Of a stretch of DNA of 64,000 nt, positions 31,783-34,170 are shown piece by piece. The DNA lies in assembly GCA_028277845.1 (NCBI GenBank), contig JANQFL010000011.1, positions 264,887-328,886 of the forward strand. The letters run 5' to 3'. Each line of letters starts with the position of its first letter. Position 1 is the stretch's first letter. The notes beneath the pieces are model-generated. The model was not told the DNA's origin and searched no databases. It saw nothing but the letters and a program-made list of their open reading frames with translations. The position numbers and the translations under genes are program-made. The stretch is from Sneathiellales bacterium. Its GTDB lineage: Bacteria > Pseudomonadota > Alphaproteobacteria > JANQFL01.

Positions 31783-32079
31783 TCCTCATTCAAGACGGCG
31801 GATTTCGAGCCTGTTTGGCCTGTCGGTATTCTTGACAGGTTTCGGTGTCAAAAATCCCCGAGCTGTTCTAGCAACACCTTGTTTTTGAAGGGCTATTTAC
31901 ATTTCACTGACCCATTTGGGTCTGTCGAAACTCATTACACGTTGATGGTGTTCGCTTGGTCGCCGCGGCTTCTAACTCTTTGAATTTGCGCGGAGTAATT
32001 CCGGTGGCACGGCAATTGCTCAGAATCATCCCAATCGGTATCGAGCACTCCCATTTGCAGAAACTTTGGGGGCACAAAA
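31783..32079. other. Intergenic region ahead of the PEP-CTERM gene
   Basis: 297 bases with lower GC than the LuxR array. It contains a CCTTgtttttgAAGG hairpin near 31878-31892 and no convincing gene. The right part carries the leader of the PEP-CTERM ORF, including TTTGCAGAAAC (32054-32064) and the Shine-Dalgarno TTGGGGG (32066-32072), of which the first is repeated inside the following ORF. Confidence 0.4.
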
Positions 32080-33870
32080 ATGAAAACCATCAACGCAGTA
32101 GCGGCAATCGTAACCATAAGCGTATCCGTCGCGGGATTTACGGCATATTCCGCTTCTGCAAGTGTCATTACGACGGGATGCGCCGATACAAACAGCTCAT
32201 GTACAATGCAAGAGTTGCTCAATGGCGGAAGCATTCAGGTATTTGACAAGGTCTTCGACAATTGGCGATTAGGGAATTTTCAGGGAGATCCTGTTCCTTT
32301 ACCTGAAAGTATTGTCGTTGCGCCATTGGCGGACAATGTGATGAATCCCGGCCTGCAATACACGACCTCGTTACAGGCCAACGATCTCAACAGTCCGGAC
32401 GGACTAGCCGATACTGTTAGTGCTTCTTGGGCCTACGACGTCAGCGTTTCTGACGGTTCAATCATGCGAATTCATGACTACGAAATCGCATTGATCGACT
32501 ACTCGCTGATGAGGGATCCCAATTTCGACACCTCTTTGAGTACTCTCTCCTATGTGCAGGATTTCGTGGATTTGTACGAAGATCCAGATTTTATCTTTGC
32601 CATAGTTAACCCACTACCAACCGCTGCAATCCATTCGGCGCCGCCGGAAAATGATTTGGTGAACGTTGGAAGCTCCTCACAGCATTTCCTTATTGAGCCG
32701 CGCACTTCGTTATCCGTTGCGCACACCGTGATCGTCTGGGCAGACCAAGGGACGGCATCATTGGGGATGTTTGAGGAGCGGTTCTCCCAGATCTCCCAGA
32801 TACCGGAACCGGCCACCCTTGCGCTTTTCTGTCTCAGCTTGCTTGGGATGATGTTTTTGAGGTGGCGGAAAAAGAAATTGCTTAGTGGAATTGTGTTTGG
32901 GAATTTGCGTTTGCAGAAACGAAGTTGCACCACAAAAATTGCCGTAGTTAACATATCCGTACTTATTACGTTTCTGGCTCCTCTAATTTTGTCGCATTCT
33001 TCCTCTGCGATCACAATCACTACGTATTGCTCCAATCGACAACATGGAGTCTATGGCCTTGACGAGGTTTCAAAGAAAACAAATTCGACGTTTTCTGCTT
33101 GCCTGGTTTCTGGAGAAACAAGGTCAGGAAGGTGGCCGTTTGAATACGAGGCACGAGCAGAGGCGAGGGCTGCCGACGGCAAAATAAAGCTCTATACGTC
33201 GATGTCTCAACAAACTGCTGGCGCTGGAGCGGCGAGAGCGAATGCGGGAATAAAGGCGACAGGGGTTATTAGCGATCCATGGGTCGGTGATTTACCGATT
33301 TCCACCGGCATTGATGGTGATTGGCTTTCAATATTCTCAAGTGGAATCGGAAACACACATTTTCGTATTTCACTTAAGATTCTTGGCAAGGAAGTTCGTC
33401 CGGGCGCCAGAGGTCCACAGATCGTAGACGGCATAATGGATATTTTTTATGACGAAGAGGATCTCTGGAGAATAGGAACACAAAGTAACATTGGCGACTT
33501 CAAATATACGCTAGTTGGTCACAGCTTTGGCGCTCAAGTATCGGTACGGCTAGAAGGTTTGCTACCGGATTTCTATGTCGGAAAGGAGTTAGAATACGAA
33601 TGGGGGCTTGAATGGTTTCAATTTCATCCTGGATTTATGGATGCGGGAGGAACGGCAAACATTGGAATTTTGCTTCCCGAAGACTATTCGTTTGTTCCCA
33701 ATGAACAAGAGTTTCTTGCAGATGCAGCTCCACTAACAAGAGATCCTCTAACATTTTCAAGTCAGACCATTCCTGAACCCACATCTCTCTTTCTCTTTGG
33801 TTTCGGACTAATCGGAATTACGGCGATACGAAGAATATGGTCCTTGCACGCATGGGAGGCAGCATCATGA
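32080..33870 (+). CDS. Tandem PEP-CTERM protein: two exported proteins in one ORF
   Basis: 596 residues that read as two proteins in one frame. Unit 1: signal peptide (about 1-28), soluble domain, then a PEP-CTERM anchor at 241-268 (IPEPATL, hydrophobic stretch, RWRKKK). Unit 2: a second signal-like hydrophobic segment (about 287-310, after RLQKRSCTTK), a soluble domain, and a second PEP-CTERM anchor at 564-590 (IPEPTSL, hydrophobic stretch, RRIW). PEP-CTERM signals are processed by exosortase in known systems; none is seen here. ATG at 32080 with TTGGGGG upstream. GC and codon use differ from the neighbours, suggesting transfer. A missing A in the run at 32869-32873 could have fused two genes; see findings. 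Confidence 0.82.
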   Translation: MKTINAVAAIVTISVSVAGFTAYSASASVITTGCADTNSSCTMQELLNGGSIQVFDKVFDNWRLGNFQGDPVPLPESIVVAPLADNVMNPGLQYTTSLQANDLNSPDGLADTVSASWAYDVSVSDGSIMRIHDYEIALIDYSLMRDPNFDTSLSTLSYVQDFVDLYEDPDFIFAIVNPLPTAAIHSAPPENDLVNVGSSSQHFLIEPRTSLSVAHTVIVWADQGTASLGMFEERFSQISQIPEPATLALFCLSLLGMMFLRWRKKKLLSGIVFGNLRLQKRSCTTKIAVVNISVLITFLAPLILSHSSSAITITTYCSNRQHGVYGLDEVSKKTNSTFSACLVSGETRSGRWPFEYEARAEARAADGKIKLYTSMSQQTAGAGAARANAGIKATGVISDPWVGDLPISTGIDGDWLSIFSSGIGNTHFRISLKILGKEVRPGARGPQIVDGIMDIFYDEEDLWRIGTQSNIGDFKYTLVGHSFGAQVSVRLEGLLPDFYVGKELEYEWGLEWFQFHPGFMDAGGTANIGILLPEDYSFVPNEQEFLADAAPLTRDPLTFSSQTIPEPTSLFLFGFGLIGITAIRRIWSLHAWEAAS

Positions 33871-33959
33871 CTCGCTATGATCTTCTTCTGTGGTCGTGCA
33901 GTGGCGTGCTGGCTGGAGCGGCTGTCGGCGTGTGGATGGGCTTTGCATTGTTTGCATGA
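33867..33959 (+). CDS. 30-residue membrane micro-ORF coupled to PEP-CTERM gene
   Basis: A 30-codon ORF whose ATG overlaps the PEP-CTERM stop (ATGA at 33867-33870). The Shine-Dalgarno GGGAGG (33854-33859) is excellent, seven bases before the ATG. The peptide is one hydrophobic helix with aromatic ends (RYDLLLWSCSGVLAGAAV..., then WMGFALFA). Such single-helix microproteins are often missed by annotation. It may be co-translated with the PEP-CTERM protein; function unknown. Confidence 0.5.
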   Translation: MTRYDLLLWSCSGVLAGAAVGVWMGFALFA

Positions 33960-33969
33960 CAATGTTGCC

Positions 33970-34170
33970 ATGGACCGGGTTCGCGAGGCCGTTCTGACGG
34001 CCGTCATCGACAACCGATACAGCCTGTCTTCGGCGTCCCACATGATCGGCGAAGATGCGCAATTCCTGGCACGTTATCTCTACGACCATGTGCCCGACTC
34101 GCTGCCAAACGAACTGCTTGGCAAACTGGCGGACGTGCTCGGACTGCCAGTCTATGCGCTCAAGCCATGA
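33970..34170 (+). CDS. Small HTH-like protein
   Basis: 66 residues from an ATG at 33970; the frame continues upstream, but the readable protein begins with MDRVREAVLTAVIDNRYSL. The pattern SLSSASHMIGEDAQFLARYLYDHVPDSLPNELLGKLADVLGLP resembles the short XRE-like HTH found at the N-terminus of C1/S24-type repressors in alphaproteobacteria, here without the peptidase part. No Shine-Dalgarno is evident. It could be a free-standing DNA-binding protein or a remnant. Confidence 0.45.
   Translation: MDRVREAVLTAVIDNRYSLSSASHMIGEDAQFLARYLYDHVPDSLPNELLGKLADVLGLPVYALKP

Follow-up and report, generated by a model that had tools for sequence, protein, structure and literature searches.

Organization of the locus

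In the window, that is the whole 64,000-nucleotide stretch of DNA analysed here, positions 32080-33870 of the plus strand were read as a single open frame of 596 amino acids without a stop. Along this fused ORF lie, in order, a signal segment, a mature domain (together with its anchor, unit 1), a PEP-CTERM motif, a basic linker, a signal-like helix, a second mature domain (unit 2) and a second PEP-CTERM motif. The features, with the evidence on which each was assigned, are as follows.

31923..31939, plus strand: upstream box TGTCGAAACTCATTACA, a probable PrsR-type activator site judging by its recurrence before other PEP-CTERM genes
32005..32020, plus strand: sigma-54 promoter TGGCACGGCAATTGCT, full match to TGGCACGN4TTGCW
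32068..32076, plus strand: Shine-Dalgarno-like sequence GGGGGCACA of unit 1, anti-SD duplex -8.4 kcal/mol
32080..33870, plus strand: fused ORF, 596 aa, from ORF reading and codon usage
32080..32160, plus strand: signal peptide 1, about aa 1-27 (...SASA|SVITT), predicted from hydropathy
32161..32796, plus strand: unit-1 mature domain, full-length homology to 18 single-unit PEP-CTERM proteins
32797..32871, plus strand: PEP-CTERM motif 1, internal, above the PF07589 gathering cut-off
32863..32940, plus strand: linker WRKKKLLSGIVFGNLRLQKRSCTTKI, a predicted cytosolic loop from its charge, with no stop, no ATG and weak SDs in the SD/start scan
32938..33009, plus strand: second signal-like helix IAVVNISVLITFLAPLILSHSSSA, hydropathy up to 2.36, putative cleavage after SSA
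33010..33765, plus strand: unit-2 mature domain, an orphan without credible homologue
33766..33834, plus strand: PEP-CTERM motif 2, C-terminal, above the PF07589 gathering cut-off
33867..33959, plus strand: 30-aa hydrophobic ORF MTRYDLLLWSCSGVLAGAAVGVWMGFALFA, overlapping the stop of the fused ORF as ATGA, SD duplex -10.2 kcal/mol

The first-pass annotation of this DNA had described two sets of signal, domain and PEP-CTERM anchor in one frame without a stop. This was borne out by the 596 open codons and by the scores of both motifs. When each half was scored separately, PF07589 gave 26.3 bits on motif 1 and 27.0 bits on motif 2 (gathering cut-off 20.7 bits), and the NCBIfam cut-off of TIGR02595 was passed by both motifs alike. 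A six-frame search of the genome placed the two motifs inside one 623-codon open frame, and of 22 overlapping 150-nt windows scored by codon usage, 20 favoured the frame of the fused ORF. Hydropathy marked the first signal segment at aa 1-25, the first anchor at aa 241-262 and the second signal-like segment at aa 282-313, anchor 2 being less hydrophobic than anchor 1. Thus an N-terminal signal, as expected of a PEP-CTERM protein, is seen by hydropathy in unit 1, and a signal-like helix precedes unit 2. The linker (aa 262-287) contains eight K or R and no D or E. The fused ORF is a real, rare architecture.

Promoter and export machinery

The box and the sigma-54 site before the fused ORF are 65 nt apart. 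At five other PEP-CTERM genes of the same genome (L008, L013, L015, L023 and L028) a similar 17-mer (TGTCGR...TTACA or TTGACA) stands 62-64 nt before the sigma-54 site. A motif of 17 nt with TTTACA as its end has been reported at 63 nt on average (Haft 2006), and as a sequence pattern the pair before the fused ORF agrees with that motif pair. Control of a PEP-CTERM gene by sigma-54 has been demonstrated in Aquincola (PMC9850573). A second sigma-54 promoter was sought between the two units and none was found; the promoter pair stands before unit 1 only. Directly upstream of the fused gene, the segment 26750-31782 holds four genes for PAS/LuxR-type regulators: the first lies on the minus strand and is followed by three consecutive genes on the plus strand that overlap or nearly abut; the Pfam scores of their GerE/PAS matches lie around or under the cut-off.

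The search for an exosortase, proposed in the first-pass annotation, was successful: contig C23 of the same genome encodes exosortase A (XrtA; 337.7 bits against a cut-off of 208) with its complete cluster, including five XrtA-associated families (an ATPase, a deacetylase, a FemAB-like protein, a glycosyltransferase and an outer-membrane protein). The locus shares with the XrtA/PEP-CTERM system (PF07589, TIGR02595, TIGR03109) the signal peptide, variable domain, PEP motif, transmembrane helix and basic tail, a promoter that is of the sigma-54/PrsR type by sequence, and an XrtA cluster in the genome. The fused gene is a rare variant of this already known system. The logic of a C-terminal motif, helix and basic tail is found also in the LPXTG/sortase surface proteins (comparison in PMC1569441), which, unlike PEP-CTERM proteins, depend on an unrelated enzyme family and belong to the Gram-positive envelope.

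Position of the internal motif

What sets the fused ORF apart from that system is the position of the first tag. Behind motif 2 there are 11 residues, a terminal position, whereas behind motif 1 there are 332, with the second unit among them. In a survey of PEP-CTERM proteins, fewer than 10 residues follow the motif in 87% of proteins, with a median of three (PMC1569441). The genome itself (5.39 Mb, 124 contigs, 98.5% complete) holds about 20 further PEP-CTERM genes, and in all those read the chain ends 1-18 residues past the motif. A tail of 332 residues behind a motif is exceptional; in its present form unit 1 bears the motif in an atypical way. Among the other PEP-CTERM proteins of this genome, L020 (G000:C2:15183) and L011 (G000:C112:2975) carry tandem internal repeats (FHFVTESDPGGLNNMNLFSF... 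and ...LITELDPGxANxQLL...) and are apparently mutually related.

Chance accounts in part for two neighbouring motifs sharing a frame, since one frame in three would do so. From nine genomes of the same class that are rich in PEP-CTERM motifs, 208 motif matches were obtained at E <= 0.01; inspection by eye of the roughly 155 matches listed revealed no pair of motifs sharing a frame, which indicates that the fused architecture is not a recurrent design. Similarly, apart from the gene itself, no frame with two motifs was noticed by eye in the best-scoring hits from 385 class genomes. These comparisons bound the frequency of two-motif frames only loosely. The fused gene is known from one genome, no orthologue of it was found, and in the collection of papers searched none mentioned PEP-CTERM together with polyprotein.

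Unit 1 is complete and its relatives are single genes

Two full-length homologues of unit 1, L031 and L076, were found in the class and phylum genomes, and a profile-guided scan of GTDB genomes added 16 more (from Colwellia, Accumulibacter, Azonexus, Rhodocyclaceae, Hahella and others). Each of the 18 consists of a single unit and matches unit 1 over the full length at about 23-33% identity. The family (ELLNGGSIxxGDKLFDxW ... FEQRFSQ ... PEP; for example L078-L093) aligns with all of unit 1, the FxQxFSQ...PxP end included, and differs from it in that only the unit 1 of the window is fused to a unit 2. In those of the 16 scan homologues with a clear PEP, the C-terminus is 23-35 residues from it; L081 has a degenerate PVP at a comparable distance from its end, and in L031 and L076 the chain also terminates just past the anchor. 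L031, which comes from the same class as the genome of the window, resembles L089 from an alphaproteobacterial MAG, and by this resemblance the organism probably belongs to the Alphaproteobacteria. The end-to-end alignment of unit 1 with 18 homologues whose chains finish close behind the anchor shows that unit 1 is complete and that the fusion is derived. The comparison of relatives that had been suggested earlier thus returned, for unit 1, separate genes in every case, and placed the fusion in the lineage of the window.

Unit 2 is an orphan of different composition

No credible homologue of the unit-2 mature domain was found in 385 class genomes (queried with unit 2 alone), in 398 phylum genomes (queried with the whole protein), or in the plasmids, viral contigs and own genome. 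Matches in genomes G553 and G286 were judged by eye to be due to chance, the proteins being restriction specificity subunit-like and pyridine nucleotide-disulphide oxidoreductase-like, and an assignment of unit 2 as a hydrolase was rejected because the Pfam and PDB matches were weak (E 0.06 and 0.8). AlphaFold run without an alignment returned an unusable model, with a pLDDT of 30 both for unit 2 and for the full chain. The GC3 of unit 2 is 0.381, that of unit 1 is 0.566, and two neighbouring genes have 0.77-0.85. This gap between the units suggests that they probably have different histories. Tandem duplication of one gene was rejected, since the mature domains have no mutual similarity (BLASTP, phmmer) and their compositions differ.

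An AT-rich orphan with no promoter and no good start of its own might be nothing but a read-through tail of unit 1, which would be degraded or would leave unit 1 unprocessed; it was noted by Haft et al. that motifs with far longer tails, distant from the C-terminus, may be non-functional (PMC1569441). Against this, unit 2 is complete: it has a signal helix, a motif above the cut-off, and 328 codons free of stops and frameshifts. Orphan status is in addition ordinary in this group, because PEP-CTERM proteins are mostly without homology outside the tag (PMC1569441). We consider a non-functional fusion unlikely.

The junction between the units

The first-pass annotation had pointed to a run of five As (32869-32873), a TAG at 32883-32885 that appears after one added A, and a GTG at 32893. 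These details are correct. From them it had proposed that a lost A in the run fused two genes. In a mutation scan of the linker, a stop was made by every single-base deletion (69/69) and every single-base insertion (276/276), and 11 single substitutions also created one. Because any indel in the linker gives a stop, the five-base run carries no specific evidence, and it was discarded as a specific lesion. The loss of an A is disfavoured also because unit 2 would remain without an ATG in any frame: a scan of all frames from 32852 to 33043 found none.

An ATG upstream of the signal helix is the rule in this genome, being present in 18 of 19 other PEP-CTERM genes by script and in the 19th by eye; their median anti-SD value is near -7. 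The GTG and TTG candidates for unit 2 between 32893 and 32911 reach -2.4 to -4.2, as against -8.4 for unit 1. For the TTG at 32878 the SD-like match is stronger (-7.6) but far away, within the coding tail of unit 1, and the leader would be 20 residues long; this TTG seems less likely as a start. With no ATG and weak SDs, unit 2 looks dependent on translation from unit 1. At the far end, the short ORF that overlaps the stop of the fused gene has a strong SD, as would fit termination of ribosomes in the frame of unit 2; no family match was found for it. It is followed at 33970-34170 by a 66-aa ORF (MDRVREAVLTAVIDNRYSLSSASHMIGEDAQFLARYLYDHVPDSLPNELLGKLADVLGLPVYALKP), for which neither a Pfam match nor an SD was found. 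A remnant leader common to 32053-32081 and 32909-32939 (TTTGCAGAAAC...CACAAAAAT) was considered and dropped, since its score is reached by 8 of 500 shuffled sequences and a signal peptide begun at an ATG there would lack a basic end.

It is conceivable, with a minor but appreciable probability, that the living organism has two separate genes and that the open frame reflects a contig error or a very recent mutation of the strain, unit 2 being translated from GTG 32893 or TTG 32905/32911 on the same message. This would accord with the single-gene state of the unit-1 relatives and with the tandem PEP-CTERM genes that are common in the genomes compared, which may share a frame with a single stop between them (L046, below). 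A start at TTG 32911 would moreover give a normal-looking signal peptide (MQKRSCTTKIAVV...) behind a weak GGGA (SD -4.2). Such a reading has to face the lack of an ATG between 32852 and 33043, so that no single indel restores the usual start, as well as the weak SDs of the plausible starts and an A-run of only five bases in a linker where any indel gives a stop. These features make it less likely that a sequencing error joined two otherwise normal genes, though unit 2 could conceivably start at a TTG or GTG.

A related genome offers a comparison. At L046 (G299:C1:739719) two complete tandem PEP-CTERM genes share a frame and are parted by a single TAA and about ten codons. The fused gene likewise has two complete units in one frame and about ten codons between; unlike it, L046 keeps the TAA as separator and has its own ATG for the second gene. 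Loss of that one stop would give the architecture of the window, and the L046 arrangement is likely to represent the state before fusion. The L046 pair belongs to a run of three PEP-CTERM genes.

A possible two-in-one precursor

Hydropathy and charge predict that signal 1 starts inside, domain 1 is outside, anchor 1 runs from outside to inside, the basic loop stays inside, signal helix 2 runs from inside to outside, and domain 2 is outside, followed by anchor 2. With this topology both PEP motifs would face the periplasm, as in ordinary substrates, and the strongly positive linker fits a cytosolic loop. The same topology would permit the internal motif to remain uncut, as an ordinary membrane hairpin joining two periplasmic domains in a stable protein. 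That motif 1 scores equal to genuine C-terminal motifs, that its order of PEP, helix and basic residues is intact, and that XrtA is present make this highly improbable.

Taken together, the above results are best explained if, specifically in this lineage, two PEP-CTERM genes were fused by stop loss into one gene for a polytopic precursor, from which two anchored proteins could be released; we give this explanation about an even chance. Two adjacent co-directional genes for unrelated PEP-CTERM surface proteins would have become one reading frame when the first lost its stop codon. A single precursor may then be expressed from the sigma-54/PrsR-type promoter. Unit 1 would be exported by signal peptide 1 until the helix of anchor 1 stops transfer, the strongly basic linker would be kept in the cytosol, and signal helix 2 would restart export of unit 2, which ends with its own anchor. 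If no free C-terminus is needed, XrtA could cleave the chain at each PEP motif and signal peptidase behind each signal segment (behind SHSSSA in the second). Two proteins, each with its own anchor, and a short hairpin remnant of two helices would result. Several observations weigh against this explanation: the gene is known from a single genome, paired motifs did not recur among those listed from the nine PEP-CTERM-rich genomes, motifs distant from the C-terminus may lack function (PMC1569441), anchor 2 is less hydrophobic than anchor 1, and the GC3 of unit 2 is far from that of unit 1 and of other genes. The first-pass annotation had thought of a natural two-in-one precursor, and as far as sequence can speak the locus fits it, in its predicted topology, XrtA, single promoter and two intact units.

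The stop-loss fusion suggests that rapidly evolving tandem genes for surface proteins can fuse. PEP-CTERM signals are taken as C-terminal by definition, and the fused gene is a candidate for a natural substrate with an internal signal. Such a substrate would put directly to the test whether motif, helix and basic patch suffice for exosortase or a free C-terminus is required. That the gene encodes a natural bacterial polyprotein, cut at an internal exosortase signal into two different surface-anchored proteins in a fixed ratio, is a rather doubtful prospect; if true, it would mean that exosortase can act without the need for a C-terminal signal.
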